Positions 34,850-42,481 of a stretch of DNA of 59,959 bases are shown here, one piece after another. This stretch comes from Nitrospirota bacterium (GTDB taxonomy: Bacteria > Nitrospirota > Thermodesulfovibrionia > Thermodesulfovibrionales > Dissulfurispiraceae): the NCBI GenBank assembly GCA_009773415.1, contig WSNO01000015.1, positions 1 through 59,959 of the forward strand. Reading direction: 5' to 3'. Numbering within the stretch: the stretch's first letter is position 1; the number at the start of each line of letters is the position of its first letter. The notes under the pieces are model-generated. The model saw nothing but the letters and a program-made list of their open reading frames with translations, had not been told where the DNA came from and did not search any database. Made by a program: the position numbers and the translations under genes.

Positions 34850-37084
34850 TCATCGTCCGTTCTGACGGCTCGCTTCCGCAAAAGCATGCAGCCATGACCG
34901 TTCCCTGACCTCTTCAAGTTTCCACGCGGTCTTCTGCACCCAGTTCGGATGCTGGTTCACCGTACCCGGCAGATTCTGCTGACTCACCAGTCCCATCAGG
35001 TCATCAAGCATTACACTCAGCATCCTGCTCGGCGTGCGAGCCAGATAGGCATGCACAGCAAGCGCGATCTCAGGCGTCATGACCGGCAGGTCGTCCGGAG
35101 CCTCCGGAAAGTCGTGCGGCAGGAGACCCCGCTCCTTCAGAGCGCGCACCAGACGTGTGCGGTCATGGCGGCGATCTTCGCGGTATCTCCCAATGTGTTC
35201 CGGATGCGGAAACAGCCGCAGTTGCTCTTTAACGTCTATATCGCGACCGAGCCAGAACCCGGCAAGCGTCGGCAGGTCATGCGTAGTGACGGCGGCGATT
35301 GCCATGTCCGGATACTGCTCAGGCCGCTTGAAGTTCGGATCGGGATAATAGCGCTCAAAATAGAGCAGCCTGAAGGACAGCATGCGGAAGGACTGCAGCA
35401 TTTCCCGCATTCCGTCGCCGAAGGTTCCGAGGTCCTCGGCAACCACAACAGTTTTGTTGCGTACACTCTCAAGTGCAATAATGCGCAGCAGTTCTTCAGC
35501 AAAGCACCGGACGTAAGCTCCTTCAAGCGGGAGTTTTCCGTCCGGAATCCAGAAGAGCCGGAAAAGCCCGAGAGCGTGGTCTATGCGGATTGCTCCTCCA
35601 TGGCGCATGTTCTTCCGGATTGATTCAATGAAAAATCGGTAGCCTGTTTCACGGAGCTGCTCCGGAATCATGGGGGGAAATCCCCAGTCCTGCCCCGACG
35701 GGTTGAAGTCGTCGAGCGGGGCGCCTACGCTGATGCCTTGAGCAAAAACCTCCTGAGCCATCCAGACATCGCTGCCGCCGGCAACAGAGCCGACCGCCAG
35801 ATCATGATAAAGACCAACCGGCATGTGCAGTTCCTGTGTCAACGCTGCTGCGTTATTATGCTGCTCATGCACCAGCCATTGCAGATACTGATAATAGAGG
35901 ATGCTTTTTTCATGCGCCTTCCTGAATGCCGTCACCGCATCGCTCTGAGGGCTATGGTACTGCTCAGGCCACTGCTGCCAGGCATCGGACCGCTGCATCG
36001 CGCAAAAACTATCTCGCATCGCGCACCACGTCGCAAAAGCCAAAAGAGAGTCCCCCTCGGCCTTTATGAAGTCCAGGAACTTCTGTGCATGTTGAGACGA
36101 GCGCTGCCAATGGTGCTCGTAAAACCATGCAAAAGCGGAGCGCAACACCTGTTCCTTCAGCGCTGCTATGGCCTCATAGTCGAGCGCATCGGCGTTTCTG
36201 ACCTCTTCCTCCTGCTTCCGGTAGCTGTCAGAGCTGACAATTTTCCGGCATTCATCCGACTCCTGCACATCCGAAACAGCCTCAAGAGCAAGATAGAGAT
36301 GATTCTTGTAAATTCTGCTTACCGGGGAATACGGGCTGATGCCGTATGGATAGGTATTCGGAATGGCGTGAAGCGGGTTGATGCCGACAAACCCTCCTCC
36401 GCATTCACCCGCCAGACGGACAAGCGATTCAAGATCGGCAAAATCGCCGATGCCCTGATTGCGCCCGGAACGAACCGCATAAAGATTGGACGATACGCCC
36501 CACACGCGGCCGGAAACAAGCTCAGGCGGCAAATAGCATTCGTCCGGCGTGATAATCATCCGCGCAAACCCGCTGATTTCTGTCGCCCCTCCGGAAAAGA
36601 CCGGCTGGGCATGGCGGCATACGACCTGCACATCGTAATACCCGATTCGCCTCCGGCCGGTGTCAGAAAGAAGAATCCTGACAAACCGCTTTCCCTCGAT
36701 GACCTCTGATGCAACAGGAACAATTTTTTCGCCCGGAAGAATGCAGCTGCAGAAGCGTCCCATCTCATCAAGTATGGTCCAGGATATTGTCAGCGAACGC
36801 TCCAGCCCTTCTTCAAGCGGAATGCTCAGGGAAATGGCGGCCGGCTGTGCCGTGACGGAAATGACCTGCACCGGCTCCAGCAGGCGATTCCATGGCCGCC
36901 CCTTCCGTTCGGCTATTTCGCGCTGCAGGCACTCGACCGAATCGACATTGATGCGCATGGCGCGCAGTATCGCTGTTTTTGTCTCCGGCGACGCCCAGTG
37001 GCGGGTGCCGAGAATGTCCCAGTAGTCAGGGATAACGCCGCACAGATCGGCAAGTTCGAGAATCAGCTCTTTGCAGTCAGGCAT
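34850..37084 (-). CDS. malQ: 4-alpha-glucanotransferase
   Basis: The 744-residue amylomaltase belongs to GH77. It moves maltooligosaccharide units in glycogen or maltodextrin metabolism. The catalytic barrel carries GINPLHAIPNTYPYGISPYSP, AIRIDHALGLFRLFWIP, VVAEDLGTFGDGMREML and TTHDLPTLAGFWLG (each a landmark), covering the catalytic Asp, Glu and Asp. An N-terminal region of about 150 residues resembles that of E. coli-type MalQ. No glycogen genes are adjacent. It lies 63 bp upstream of the CysRS-like gene on the same strand order. Confidence 0.93.
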   Translation of the reverse strand: MPDCKELILELADLCGVIPDYWDILGTRHWASPETKTAILRAMRINVDSVECLQREIAERKGRPWNRLLEPVQVISVTAQPAAISLSIPLEEGLERSLTISWTILDEMGRFCSCILPGEKIVPVASEVIEGKRFVRILLSDTGRRRIGYYDVQVVCRHAQPVFSGGATEISGFARMIITPDECYLPPELVSGRVWGVSSNLYAVRSGRNQGIGDFADLESLVRLAGECGGGFVGINPLHAIPNTYPYGISPYSPVSRIYKNHLYLALEAVSDVQESDECRKIVSSDSYRKQEEEVRNADALDYEAIAALKEQVLRSAFAWFYEHHWQRSSQHAQKFLDFIKAEGDSLLAFATWCAMRDSFCAMQRSDAWQQWPEQYHSPQSDAVTAFRKAHEKSILYYQYLQWLVHEQHNNAAALTQELHMPVGLYHDLAVGSVAGGSDVWMAQEVFAQGISVGAPLDDFNPSGQDWGFPPMIPEQLRETGYRFFIESIRKNMRHGGAIRIDHALGLFRLFWIPDGKLPLEGAYVRCFAEELLRIIALESVRNKTVVVAEDLGTFGDGMREMLQSFRMLSFRLLYFERYYPDPNFKRPEQYPDMAIAAVTTHDLPTLAGFWLGRDIDVKEQLRLFPHPEHIGRYREDRRHDRTRLVRALKERGLLPHDFPEAPDDLPVMTPEIALAVHAYLARTPSRMLSVMLDDLMGLVSQQNLPGTVNQHPNWVQKTAWKLEEVRERSWLHAFAEASRQNGR

Positions 37085-37147: not shown

Positions 37148-38374
37148 CTACTTCTTGCTGAACAGTATGTTGAGAACCGTATCCACTCTTTTGAGTGCGT
37201 TGACAATCGCTGCCGCCTCCCCTGCGCTCAGCGCAGGCGTCTCAATCGAAGCAACCACTTCGCATACTGCATCAAATGCCGTGCCGGTGTTCAAATCCTC
37301 GTCCATGCGGAGCCGAAACTCAGCGATCAGTTTTTCTGCGACAATGCTTTTCACGGCAGCGGCTCTCCCGGCCCTTTTTGCAAGCAGACGAATCATGTTG
37401 CGAAGCGACCGCAGGCGGGACGCTGCACGATGCATTTGTTCAGCCGTGAAGTCGAATGGTTCACGGTAATGTCTGTCGATTAAAAAAAATCGGATCTCGG
37501 CAAAACTGTATCCCTCCGAACGCAGCGTATCCGTATAGACGATATTCCCCTTGCTCTTTGACATCTTGCGCCCGTCAACGAGAAGATTGTTGCCGTGCAG
37601 CCAGTAGCGGGCCATCGGATACGGCCGCACCGACTCAAGAATGGCGATATTGTAATCATGGTGGCGATAGAGGTTGTCGACGCCTCCGCAATAGATGGAA
37701 AGCGTGTCGTCGAAGTACTGAAGCAGCGTGCTCGCGTCCTGCACGTTCCATGACGGACGCCCCCTGCCGATGACGGTGTCCCAGCAGCCGTCCTTTCCGC
37801 CCGGACAGCCGTGCCAGAGAATAAAGTCCCCCAGATTCCATTGCACGCCGGGGTATGTATCCTTATGGAAGCGTCGCTTTTTCTTCGGCCATGTGGCCAT
37901 ATCAAGGCCGAACAACCTGCCGAATCTCTTGAACCTGAGCGGATCAAAATAAACATTCCCGTCGTGCCAGTAGGCAACCGTGCGCTTCAGCAGTTCCTGA
38001 ATGATTGCAACGGCGTGCTCTACATGTTCGGATGCGAGCGGCAGATAATCCGGCCGCTTCATGCCGAGCGCATCGGTCTCTTTCAGAAATTGTCCGATAT
38101 TCCGGTCGGTCAGTTTTTTTACGGTTGTTTTTTCTTTTTCAGCCTCGCGGAGCGCCTTGTCTTCAATGTCGGTAATAATCATGCCGCGCTTCACGGCGAA
38201 CCCCGAATACTCAAGATACCGGACGAGAATGTCTTCAAACAAAAAAGTGCGCATGTTGCCGATATGAGCCCGCTGGTATACGGATGGACCGCAGGTAAAA
38301 ATAGTGACCGTTTTCGGGTCGACCGGTCTGAAGGTCTCCATCTTCCGGCCGAAGGTGTTGAAGAGTTTCAGCAT
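37148..38374 (-). CDS. Cysteinyl-tRNA synthetase paralogue with lost zinc ligands
   Basis: The 408-residue protein is homologous to CysRS from end to end but has marked changes. The first Zn ligand region (TCGPSVYQ, Cys28) is kept. HIGH is HIGNMR (residues 37-42), the second ligand is Asp213 in SWNVQDAS where CysRS has GWHIECS, and the HHENE motif is HHDYN, so the final Glu is Asn242. KMSKSKGN (270-277) is intact. In true CysRS the zinc binds the cysteine thiol, so loss of two ligands argues for another substrate or no aminoacylation. It lacks most of the C-terminal anticodon domain. The housekeeping cysS must be elsewhere. Confidence 0.75.
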   Translation of the reverse strand: MLKLFNTFGRKMETFRPVDPKTVTIFTCGPSVYQRAHIGNMRTFLFEDILVRYLEYSGFAVKRGMIITDIEDKALREAEKEKTTVKKLTDRNIGQFLKETDALGMKRPDYLPLASEHVEHAVAIIQELLKRTVAYWHDGNVYFDPLRFKRFGRLFGLDMATWPKKKRRFHKDTYPGVQWNLGDFILWHGCPGGKDGCWDTVIGRGRPSWNVQDASTLLQYFDDTLSIYCGGVDNLYRHHDYNIAILESVRPYPMARYWLHGNNLLVDGRKMSKSKGNIVYTDTLRSEGYSFAEIRFFLIDRHYREPFDFTAEQMHRAASRLRSLRNMIRLLAKRAGRAAAVKSIVAEKLIAEFRLRMDEDLNTGTAFDAVCEVVASIETPALSAGEAAAIVNALKRVDTVLNILFSKK

Positions 38375-38438
38375 GGGCGAGTCTCCTTATTTATGGTAAA
38401 AAAGCACCTTAACATTATTGTACCGCATAACCGCATTC

Positions 38439-39797
38439 TCACCGCCTGTCCGCCACTCGCCGCCATGCTCCTCCGCGGAACCGGAGAACCATGAGTACCG
38501 TCTGAACCGCCATCGAAACGACCATCGCAATCCAGACGCCTGTTGCGCCGTATCCGAGCCAGAAAGTCAGAACAGCGGCAAGCGGCAGGCGAACTATCCA
38601 CATCGCGGTGATAACCACCCGCATCGTGCCGCGTGTATCACCTGCGCCCTGCAGGCATCCGCCGAGGATGACGCTGAAAGCCATGAGCGGGGCGACCGCC
38701 ATGTTGAACTGCAGATACCGGGCGGTCTCCTGAAGCACCGAGGGATCGCGGGCGAGCAGTGCGGCGACGGACTCCGCAGCGAAAAAAATGCCGATTGCCG
38801 GAATGCTGACGCAGGCGGCTCCCGCCCCCGCTATCTTCCAGCCGACTTCTTGCGCACGGTCTGGGTTGCCTGCGCCCAGGTTCTGCCCCATCAGCACCGA
38901 AGCCGCCATGTTCAAAGCAAACGCCGGCAAAAACAGAATTGCCTCAATCCGCAATCCGCTTGTAATGGCTGCCAGTGCGGTTATGCTCTCCTCTCCAAGA
39001 CGGCCGAGCATGTTGTATAAAATGATGGTTCCCGCGTTCCATGCTGTTTGAAGTGCCGCCGACGGCCAGCTGATTGCAAAGACGCGCCGAATGGTGTCGG
39101 TCGAAATCCGGAACGGACCCCTGCAGACAGACCGCCAGCGTGACCCCAGAAGAAGCATGACGAGAACAAGCACACCTGCGATTATCGATGCGGCATTTGC
39201 GAGCGCGATGCCGCGATAGCCGAGGCCGACGTGAAACACCAGGAACCACACGGCGACGACATTCACCATCATGACGAGAAACATCGTCACAAGCGGCTTC
39301 ATCGGCTCGCCGCTTGCGCGAAACACCGCATTCGCTATAAGCAACAGATAATTCGGTCCGAGCGTCAGACCGAAAATCCGGAGAAAATCAGCGGCTATTT
39401 CCTGCGTTTCGGGCGGAAATCCGGCAAACAAAACGATTTCGCGGCTGAAAATCGAAACAATAATCGTCAGCGCCGCCGCAACCGCCGCCCCGAACGCAAG
39501 CGACTGACGTGCGACAGAAAGCGCCTCCGGAAAGTCGCCGGCGCCGATGGCCCGAGACACGATTGCAACCGTCCCGATGCTGATCGCATTGGCCAGAATA
39601 ATCACGAGGAAATATATCTGACTGACAAATCCTACCGCAGCCTGCACCGCCGGACTGATAAGTCCCGCAACATAGACGTCGACAAAGATGACGACAAAGT
39701 TGAACAGCATGATCAACACCATCGGCCACGACATCTGCCAGATGTTTTTCCAGGGGTTTCCTGTGGTAAGGCTCAGGTGGTCAGTGTTGGACGGCAT
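38439..39797 (-). CDS. MATE-family efflux transporter
   Basis: The 452-residue protein has about twelve hydrophobic helices and the MATE layout of two six-helix halves. The N-terminal WKNIWQMSWPMVLIMLFNFVVIFVD and the FVSQIYFLVIILANAISIGTVAIVSRAIGAGD stretch match helices 1-2; LGPNYLLLIANAVFRASGEPMKPL matches mid-family signatures (landmarks). MATE pumps export drugs or metabolites using Na+ or H+. Substrate and ion are unknown. It is divergent from the lytS-like gene. Confidence 0.92.
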   Translation of the reverse strand: MPSNTDHLSLTTGNPWKNIWQMSWPMVLIMLFNFVVIFVDVYVAGLISPAVQAAVGFVSQIYFLVIILANAISIGTVAIVSRAIGAGDFPEALSVARQSLAFGAAVAAALTIIVSIFSREIVLFAGFPPETQEIAADFLRIFGLTLGPNYLLLIANAVFRASGEPMKPLVTMFLVMMVNVVAVWFLVFHVGLGYRGIALANAASIIAGVLVLVMLLLGSRWRSVCRGPFRISTDTIRRVFAISWPSAALQTAWNAGTIILYNMLGRLGEESITALAAITSGLRIEAILFLPAFALNMAASVLMGQNLGAGNPDRAQEVGWKIAGAGAACVSIPAIGIFFAAESVAALLARDPSVLQETARYLQFNMAVAPLMAFSVILGGCLQGAGDTRGTMRVVITAMWIVRLPLAAVLTFWLGYGATGVWIAMVVSMAVQTVLMVLRFRGGAWRRVADRR

Positions 39798-39989
39798 GAG
39801 GACTCGCTACATTGGGCATAGTGATTATTTTACCTGAAAAACTGCGCGGCGTTCGCATCCTGGTGAAGATGTGCTGACAGCCCGGACAATGCGGAGCCCT
39901 GCCCGCTGAGAGTGCAAACCGTCAGCTTGTCTGTATTCTGCCTCAGAGAAAGAACTCTCTCCTTCCGGCTTTTTGAGGTAAAATACCGC

Positions 39990-41720
39990 ATGGAGACGTT
40001 CAACCCTGCACACGGCATGATTGGCCTGCTGATAAGCCTGCTTGAGCGGCTTGGCATTTTTGCGGCTGGCTTTATTGTGCTGATGCGGTTTAACGCTTTC
40101 AAGCGCCTGATTACCGGAAAGGCGACGCGCTATGAAAAACTGACCCTTTCCGTTGTATTCGGACTCTTCGGCATCGCGGGCACCTATCTGGGCGTGCCGG
40201 TGCATGACGCTATCGCAAACTCGCGTGTCGTAGGCGTTGCGCTGGGCGGCATTCTGGGCGGCCCGCTCGTCGGCTTCTCTGCCGGACTCATTGCGGGCGG
40301 ACACCGGTTTTTGATCGACATCGGAGGGTTCACCGCGCTTGCGTGCGGCATTGCGACCATTGCGGAAGGATGCTTCGGGAGCCTGCTCTATCACAAAATC
40401 AAAAAAGAGCGCTTTGATCCGCAGGCGGCATTTATTGTGGGACTGGCGGTTGAGATTCTTCAGATGATTATCATACTGCTGATCGCCAGGCCCGTCGATG
40501 CGGCATTTCAGCTTGTTCAGGTGATCGCAGTACCGATGATTCTCGCCAACTCCCTGGGCCTCGCCGTATTTGTGAAGCTGGTCGAGTCCATGTCAAAAGA
40601 GCAGGAGCGGTTCGGGGCGTATCAGGCGCAGACCGCGCTGAAAATCGCCCTCCGCACCCTCCCGATACTGCGTAGCGGGCTGAATCATGAGTCGGCAACA
40701 AAAAGCGCCCGGATTATTCTCGAAATGACCGACCTGGACGCGGTAGCGCTCACCGATGAACGGCAAATCCTTGCGCATGTGGGCGCTGAGGCTGATCACC
40801 ATAAGCCTCACACTCCCCTGCTGACCTCCGCGACGCGCCATGCCCTCTCTTCCGGCGAAATAGTGGTAGCATCAACAAGAGATGAAATAGGCTGCACGCA
40901 TCCGTCCTGCGGCCTGGGATCAGCCATTATTGTTCCGCTCAAACGTCAGGAAAAGACTATTGGAGCATTGAAGCTCTACCGGCTGAAAGAACAGCGCATC
41001 AGTCCGCTCGACATGGAACTGGCAAACGGGCTGGCGCATCTTTTCTCAAACCAGATTGAACTTGCGGAGCTCGACAACCAGCGCAAGCTTGCAAAAGAGG
41101 CTGAAATCAGGGCGCTTCAGGCACAGATTAACCCTCATTTTCTCTTCAATACGCTGAACACTGTCAGAAGTTACATGCGCACCGACATCGAGACCGCCCG
41201 GCGTCTCATGGTGAAACTTGCGGAATTTCTGCGGAAAAACATGAACCCCGGCAATGAAGACATGCCTCTTTCCGTCGAGATTGAACACTGCAAAACCTAT
41301 ATTGAAATTGAATCAGCCCGTTTTGACGACCGGGTAAGGGCGCGTTTTGACGTTGACAATGCCGCGCTTGACTGCCGGGTTCCGCCGCTGATACTGCAGC
41401 CCATCGTCGAAAATGCCCTGAAGCACGGCATTCTTCGGAAGGAGTGCGGCGGAGAACTTCTTGTGTCTGCCCGCCGGGAAAACGGCGCGCTCCGGATCAG
41501 TGTTGCCGACGACGGGGAAGGCATGACCGGCGCGACACTCTCCGGCCTGTTCAGTGATCAAGGATCGGCGTCCGGCGGGGCGTCGGACAGCGGTTCGGGA
41601 ATCGCCCTCAGGAATATAAATGCGCGGCTTGTTGCGCTGTACGGATCGCGCCACGCGCTGTCCGTTGAAAGCACTCCCCAGAAAGGAACGGTTGTTTCGT
41701 TTACCGTGCCGGTGCATTGA
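39990..41720 (+). CDS. LytS/BtsS-type membrane sensor histidine kinase
   Basis: From ATG 39990 the protein is 576 residues. The N-terminal 5TM-5TMR LytS module (to about residue 200) includes VALGGILGGPLVGFSAGLIAGGHRF. A GAF domain spans roughly 220-360. The His_kinase domain has the phosphorylatable histidine in ALQAQINPHFLFNTLNTV, and an ATPase lid follows (DDGEGM, SGIALRNINARL). It probably autophosphorylates and passes phosphate to the adjacent response regulator. Relatives sense pyruvate or cell-wall state; the signal here is unknown. An upstream extension is open but lacks family sequence; a TAAAAT box (39979-39984) lies close to the ATG. Confidence 0.88.
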   Translation: METFNPAHGMIGLLISLLERLGIFAAGFIVLMRFNAFKRLITGKATRYEKLTLSVVFGLFGIAGTYLGVPVHDAIANSRVVGVALGGILGGPLVGFSAGLIAGGHRFLIDIGGFTALACGIATIAEGCFGSLLYHKIKKERFDPQAAFIVGLAVEILQMIIILLIARPVDAAFQLVQVIAVPMILANSLGLAVFVKLVESMSKEQERFGAYQAQTALKIALRTLPILRSGLNHESATKSARIILEMTDLDAVALTDERQILAHVGAEADHHKPHTPLLTSATRHALSSGEIVVASTRDEIGCTHPSCGLGSAIIVPLKRQEKTIGALKLYRLKEQRISPLDMELANGLAHLFSNQIELAELDNQRKLAKEAEIRALQAQINPHFLFNTLNTVRSYMRTDIETARRLMVKLAEFLRKNMNPGNEDMPLSVEIEHCKTYIEIESARFDDRVRARFDVDNAALDCRVPPLILQPIVENALKHGILRKECGGELLVSARRENGALRISVADDGEGMTGATLSGLFSDQGSASGGASDSGSGIALRNINARLVALYGSRHALSVESTPQKGTVVSFTVPVH

Positions 41721-41722
41721 CC

Positions 41723-42481
41723 ATGACCATTCGAGCCTGCATTATCGACGATGAAGCGCCGGCCCGGCGCGAACTCAAGTTTCTGCTGGGCCAGATTGAC
41801 GATGTTGAGGTGGTCTGCGAGGCTGCCAACGGGGCAATCGGACTGAAAAAGATTCGCGAGCACTGCCCGGACGTGATTTTTCTCGACATCAACATGCCCG
41901 GACTGAACGGGCTGGAACTTTCACAGATTCTTGCGGACCTGCCGACGCAACCGCTTGTCGTCTTTGCCACGGCGTATGAGCAGTATGCTCTTCAGGCGTT
42001 TGACGTCAGCGCGTTTGACTATATTCTGAAGCCGTTTGAGCTGGAACGTCTCCAGAAAACTTTTGCAAAAATGCGCAAGATCGTGCACCCGCCGGTGTCC
42101 CCGACAGAAGCTCCGCCGGCGCTCCCTGCCCTGGAGTCCGGAAACAGGCTCCTCAAAATACCGGCGTACAAAAACGACCGTATCATTCCGCTCGCACCTG
42201 ACCGGATTCTGTGTGCGCGTGCTGCTGAGGGAGACGTGCTCATTCAGACGTTCGACGGACAGTACATGACAAAATCCACCCTGAATGATCTTGAGCAGAA
42301 ACTTGCCTCCCATGGCTTTATCCGCACGCACCGCAGCTCGCTGGTGAATCTGCAGCATGTTGCCGAAATCATTCCGTGGTTTAACGGCAGCTACAAGCTT
42401 GTCATGAATGATCGGCAGAAAACCGAGATTCTGGTCAGCCGCTACCATGCGAAGGAGCTGAAAAAGCATTTTGACCTGTAG
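41723..42481 (+). CDS. LytR/AlgR-type response regulator (REC-LytTR)
   Basis: From ATG 41723 the protein is 252 residues. A receiver domain (ACIIDDEAPARRELKFLL, with phosphoacceptor Asp55 in FLDINMPGLNGLEL and KPFELERL) precedes a C-terminal LytTR DNA-binding domain, marked by LKIPAYKNDRIIPLAPDRI, LEQKLASHGFIRTHRSSLVN and NGSYKLVMNDRQKTEILVSR (landmarks). It is the partner of the kinase directly upstream. A TTG at 41717 overlapping the kinase stop is an alternative start, but the ATG fits family length. Targets are not evident. Confidence 0.9.
   Translation: MTIRACIIDDEAPARRELKFLLGQIDDVEVVCEAANGAIGLKKIREHCPDVIFLDINMPGLNGLELSQILADLPTQPLVVFATAYEQYALQAFDVSAFDYILKPFELERLQKTFAKMRKIVHPPVSPTEAPPALPALESGNRLLKIPAYKNDRIIPLAPDRILCARAAEGDVLIQTFDGQYMTKSTLNDLEQKLASHGFIRTHRSSLVNLQHVAEIIPWFNGSYKLVMNDRQKTEILVSRYHAKELKKHFDL

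Follow-up and report, generated by a model that had tools for sequence, protein, structure and literature searches.

A CysRS paralogue family with aspartate at a zinc-ligand position, possibly a tRNA-independent aminoacyl ligase

Cysteinyl-tRNA synthetase (CysRS) selects cysteine by the textbook zinc-thiolate contact. MshC, the cysteine:GlcN-Ins ligase of mycothiol synthesis (structures 3c8z and 8hfm), is still a zinc-binding protein with the ligands Cys-Cys-His, and the known amino-sugar acceptors are made by BshA and MshA. ThrRS and methanogen SerRS are enzymes of the class II fold and unrelated to the family described here. MshC is a CysRS paralogue that activates cysteine and, independently of tRNA, transfers it to an amino sugar (PMC5370406). 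CysRS* of Desulfobacterales is devoid of the anticodon domain (PMC7609411; PMC11415595) and serves the selC* tRNA. As this example shows, a missing anticodon domain alone does not exclude tRNA charging (PMC7609411). Zinc can also serve for reading hydroxy amino acids, as is reported for ThrRS, where the site holds Cys and two His, and for methanogen SerRS, where it holds Cys and Glu (PMC7373986).

The window studied here, i.e. the whole stretch of 59,959 nucleotides that was analysed, stems from a Nitrospirota bacterium and contains a CysRS-like gene that starts with ATG (Table 1). The encoded protein matches the Pfam family tRNA-synt_1e, the CysRS catalytic domain, with 227 bits, and CysRS is on top of its sequence matches in the PDB, among which MshC is also present. 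It scores 295.7 bits against TIGR00435 (cysS), under the curated cut-off of 340, and 187.3 bits against TIGR03447 (MshC), under the curated cut-off of 485.1. An AlphaFold2 model calculated with 70 family members as input (mean pLDDT 92.4, pTM 0.92) has its nearest solved fold in E. coli CysRS 1u0b (VIA-align Z 47.4, rmsd 2.2, 386 aligned), MshC 3c8z being slightly further away (Z 42.1, 364 aligned). The protein has the class Ia CysRS fold and an intact KMSKSKGN motif, both of which had been recognized in a sequence-only reading of this DNA. The alignment with E. coli CysRS stops at about residue 400, ahead of the anticodon-binding domain, and the Pfam domains CysS_C and DALR_2, both present in the host's own canonical CysRS, were not found in the paralogue. 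It differs from canonical CysRS in score, zinc ligands and anticodon domain, and from MshC, with which it shares a length of around 410 aa and the lack of an anticodon domain, in score, second zinc ligand (Asp) and pathway.

Table 1. Features of the paralogue locus (coordinates refer to the window; residue numbers in brackets are those of E. coli CysRS)
Feature	Position	Strand	Basis
CysRS-like paralogue, 408 aa, without C-terminal anticodon-binding domain	37148..38374	-	ORF call, profile matches, model
AAGGAG, ribosome-binding-site-like, 8 nt 5' of the paralogue ATG	38383..38388	-	read from sequence
Cys28 codon (zinc ligand Cys28), invariant 72/72	38291..38293	-	alignment
HIGN, residues 37-40	38255..38266	-	alignment
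Asn210-Val-Gln212-Asp213 (His206-Ile-Glu208-Cys209); Asn210, Gln212 and Asp213 invariant 72/72	37736..37747	-	alignment
Cys229 codon (CGG loop)	37688..37690	-	alignment
His238-His239-Asp240-Tyr241-Asn242 (HHENE; zinc ligands His234, Glu238)	37649..37663	-	alignment
KMSKS, residues 270-274	37553..37567	-	alignment
MATE family exporter, directly upstream of the paralogue, same strand, 64 nt gap	38439..39797	-	TIGR00797, 206.9 bits
malQ, 4-alpha-glucanotransferase, downstream of the paralogue	34850..37084	-	profile matches

The sequence-only reading had taken the protein for a CysRS paralogue and had named a canonical cysS elsewhere in the genome as one check to be made. There are indeed two CysRS genes in the host genome, which comprises 2.46 Mb on 61 contigs: the paralogue and, on another contig, a canonical cysS in which the four zinc ligands, HIGH and KMSKS are complete. 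Of 26 deltaproteobacterial and spirochaetal carriers that were tested, 25 likewise have a canonical cysS above the cut-off in addition to the paralogue, the exception being a 2.1 Mb assembly. The canonical gene of the host (contig C27, L002:1246-3486, minus strand) is a single frame of 747 aa in which CysRS follows a serine acetyltransferase (SATase_N, Hexapep), apparently a CysE-CysRS fusion. At cysS, further genomes of the host phylum also show long open frames (709-817 aa), and these lengths suggest that the fusion is shared there.

Similarity and pattern searches place the paralogue in a conserved family of the host phylum, deltaproteobacteria and spirochaetes. Among 295 sampled genomes of the host phylum, 22 encode a member with at least 52% identity, canonical cysS being clearly separate at 31-35%. 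When 84,980 species genomes were scanned with a pattern, 54 loci emerged, one of them a canonical cysS and the remaining 53 family members (34 deltaproteobacterial and 19 spirochaetal). The phylogeny against CysRS, also proposed in the sequence-only reading, was calculated by maximum likelihood from 85 sequences, 30 family members included, after the pocket columns had been taken out. All 30 members formed one clade (100/100) on a long stem (1.49), with a group of five spirochaetal CysRS as its sister (100/100). A wider cluster (100/96) united the family with the spirochaetal HIGN groups and with the fused domains introduced below. A single clade amid HIGN groups indicates one origin of the family, from a HIGN-type CysRS, and its present occurrence in three phyla probably goes back to transfer. 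For three family pairs dN/dS was 0.08, 0.12 and 0.12, with dS saturated in two of the three and not computable for a fourth pair; the value for canonical cysS was 0.06. At the codon level, these ratios show purifying selection on the family. Asp213, Asn40, Cys28 and His238 each occur in 72 of 72 members, which confirms from the alignment that the reading frame is real and due neither to chance nor to decay; a pseudogene is ruled out by the invariant motifs together with the low dN/dS (0.08-0.12).

Plasmid carriage was ruled out: of 616 matching plasmid records, the best 15 show no more than 33.1% identity, and five of these 15 are annotated as cysteine--tRNA ligase. No viral contig carrying the family was confirmed, and a defence system was ruled out by PADLOC, which gave no match. 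No description of the family was found in the full-text literature searched, a body from which subscription papers are largely missing; as far as these searches reach, the family is undescribed and new to print.

Residues were counted in an alignment of 72 complete family members with 60 relatives, namely 37 CysRS of the HIGH type, three of them PDB entries, 15 spirochaetal-type CysRS, four MshC and four CysRS-like domains joined to a cysteine-synthase-like domain (the fused domains). The canonical zinc ligands Cys28, Cys209, His234 and Glu238 of E. coli CysRS correspond to Cys28, Asp213, His238 and Asn242 of the paralogue, so that two of four are kept. Asp213 in place of Cys, Asn242 in place of Glu and HIGN had thus been read correctly beforehand. 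The interpretation of HIGN as a lost HIGH, however, did not survive the comparison: Asn40 is found in 72 of 72 family members and equally in every one of the 15 spirochaetal-type CysRS, among them the Borrelia enzyme of known structure (3sp1), so HIGN is an ordinary clade variant, the pair of HIGN and KMSKS is that of a spirochaetal-type CysRS, and a loss of function on this ground was ruled out. The two replaced zinc ligands fared differently from each other. The Glu238 position is Asn in 56, Ser in ten, Thr in five and Leu in one of the family members. The 56 CysRS and fused domains all have Glu there, whereas the four MshC have Ser or Gly. The Cys209 position, in contrast, is Asp in 72 of 72 members and Cys in 60 of 60 relatives, an exchange unique to the family in this comparison. 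By this alignment, the true oddity of the family is the exchange of Cys for Asp, and not HIGN or the missing Glu.

Further exchanges accompany that of Cys209. His206 is replaced by Asn in 72 of 72 family members and in none of the 60 relatives; Gln for Glu208 is fixed in the family and occurs elsewhere only in three of the four fused domains. Family and MshC both deviate from CysRS at His224, Asn237 and Glu238, with the difference that MshC keeps Cys209 and HIGH where the family has Asp and HIGN. Compared with spirochaetal HIGN-type CysRS such as 3sp1 from Borrelia burgdorferi, the family has the same fold, HIGN, KMSKS, Cys28 and the His at position 234, as well as the CGG-loop Cys of one subgroup, and it is the sister branch in the tree, but it has no anticodon-binding domain and differs by Cys209 to Asp, Glu238 to Asn, Ser or Thr, His206 to Asn and Glu208 to Gln. 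Cys28, His238, His239, Trp209 (Trp205 of CysRS), Thr68 and Asp69 are invariant in the family. So is Cys229, which is also present in nine of ten spirochaetal CGG-type CysRS and hence need not be seen as a new ligand. Since Cys28 and His238 stay invariant, we infer that Cys28, Asp213 and His238 form a candidate metal site rather than the remains of a lost one, and the exchange of Cys for Asp at position 209 may be a ligand swap. Taking the two replacements as proof that zinc is gone would go too far, given that the Glu position is also altered in MshC.

The fused domains belong to deltaproteobacterial proteins of about 780 aa (L129-L132) in which a cysteine-synthase-like domain (PALP; verified with Pfam for L129) is joined to a CysRS-like domain that keeps all four zinc ligands and has degraded HIGH and KMSKS motifs. 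In its residue pattern, this fusion is the mirror image of the paralogue family, and the CysRS-like part might act in cysteine sensing or in channelling.

The MATE exporter gene adjoins the paralogue gene in the same order in 13 of 22 carriers of the host phylum (that of the window and 12 among 20 further loci); G179, a carrier outside these 20, has no such MATE in its genome. An orthologue of the exporter is encoded in 17 of 22 carriers (five are without) versus 8 of the remaining 273 sampled genomes (Fisher p 1.5e-17, shared ancestry not corrected for). The link is absent from the 26 spirochaetal and deltaproteobacterial carriers tested, three of which have a relative with 36-41% identity, never on the contig of the paralogue. 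Other exporters are same-strand neighbours of the paralogue gene at further loci, ABC-type proteins at L027, L030 and L058 and an MFS protein at L032, and within the host phylum an MFS protein at L066 and an HlyD protein at L073. Outside the host phylum the neighbours vary by lineage, and ordinary genes recur as well as exporters. No operon conserved between phyla was found; neighbourhoods are shared only by close relatives. The position of malQ next to the paralogue is common only to the congener G001, and malQ is probably not part of the system. ARAGORN detected neither tRNA-Cys nor tRNA-Sec in any of 73 paralogue loci, and tRNA genes (Met, Thr, Ala, Val) in only four of them.

Some further genes were observed in these neighbourhoods. 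Near the MATE gene of the window, a divergent pair of a 5TMR-LYT histidine kinase and a LytTR response regulator occupies 39912-42481. In a spirochaetal subgroup (L017, L036, L048), genes for serine acetyltransferase (cysE) and NifU-like and NifS-like proteins lie near the paralogue, on the opposite strand and at five loci only. A DUF364/DUF4213 'putative heavy-metal chelation' protein is encoded upstream of the paralogue on the same strand at L046:5379-6284; these families match 2 of 50 scanned paralogue neighbours.

A rebuilt pocket with kept ATP machinery, the same in three bacterial groups, suggests that the paralogue probably makes a small molecule rather than taking part in translation. 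Tentatively, and with rather less than full conviction, we favour a tRNA-independent, ATP-dependent, MshC-like aminoacyl ligase with altered substrate that would have descended from a spirochaetal-type CysRS. By analogy, MshC is the best available model for how the paralogue would work, because the anticodon domain is missing and no tRNA partner was found. ATP and an amino acid would bind to the Rossmann site, and HIGN and KMSKS, as conserved motifs, would make the aminoacyl-adenylate. The rebuilt metal site Cys28-Asp213-His238 would pick the amino acid, replacing the Cys-Cys-His(-Glu) zinc site of CysRS and MshC. The substrate might be cysteine, recognized in a changed manner, although a close analogue carrying a harder donor, for instance serine or diaminopropionate, is somewhat more likely. 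The mixed zinc sites of ThrRS and methanogen SerRS resemble the proposed one, by analogy only, and zinc reading by these enzymes makes it plausible that a Cys-Asp-His site favours a harder donor than a thiolate. With no anticodon domain present, a small amine would then accept the activated group, similarly to the MshC reaction, and in the host phylum the linkage points to the neighbouring MATE exporter as the putative recipient of the product. The earlier proposal of another acceptor in the manner of MshC agrees with the absence of an anticodon domain and of any tRNA partner; its second part, a substrate other than cysteine, is a possibility.

The protein could instead be a cysteine:small-amine ligase, an analogue of MshC with another acceptor in which the thiolate is still bound by zinc and Asp merely replaces one Cys ligand. 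The invariance of Cys28 and His238, the equally missing Glu ligand of MshC and the retention of Trp209 in 72 of 72 members are in line with this. The joint fixation of Asn for His206, Gln for Glu208 and Asp for Cys209, however, exceeds what a neutral swap needs, and we consider this unlikely. None of the 295 sampled host-phylum genomes has BshA or MshA over the cut-off, which also speaks against it and rules out a bacillithiol or mycothiol ligase. An aminoacyl-tRNA synthetase for a special tRNA is improbable. By its description, CysRS* resembles the paralogue in being a CysRS paralogue without anticodon domain next to a canonical CysRS and in occurring in Desulfobacterales (PMC7609411; PMC11415595). 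It is tied to a selC*/selB* operon, while neither selB nor selC* lies near the paralogue, and in a comparison by description the altered zinc site and the spread over three phyla set the paralogue apart. CysRS* is moreover predicted to charge cysteine and should need an intact zinc site, the 73 loci offer no tRNA-Cys or tRNA-Sec, and selB was never on the contig of the paralogue in 13 deltaproteobacterial genomes, which rules out a CysRS*/selB* operon. We regard as quite improbable a metal-free aminoacyl ligase whose polar residues read another side chain directly: two replaced ligands, the variable Glu position and the loss of His224 would fit, but a lost metal site does not require Cys28 and His238 to be fixed in all 72 members. 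A non-catalytic regulatory or sensing relic has a precedent in the superfamily in the fused domains with their degraded motifs, but is very improbable with all catalytic motifs retained and low dN/dS.

If the MshC-like ligase with altered substrate is the correct reading, CysRS-derived ligases of three phyla might have turned one soft zinc ligand into Asp, read a harder side chain, e.g. that of serine or diaminopropionate, and furnished an aminoacylated metabolite for export, a full scenario that we consider possible though doubtful. With the same fold, the catalytic motifs kept and Asp at one zinc-ligand position, the family would offer a direct test of the zinc-thiolate rule, and it could point to a new small molecule of anaerobic and sediment bacteria.
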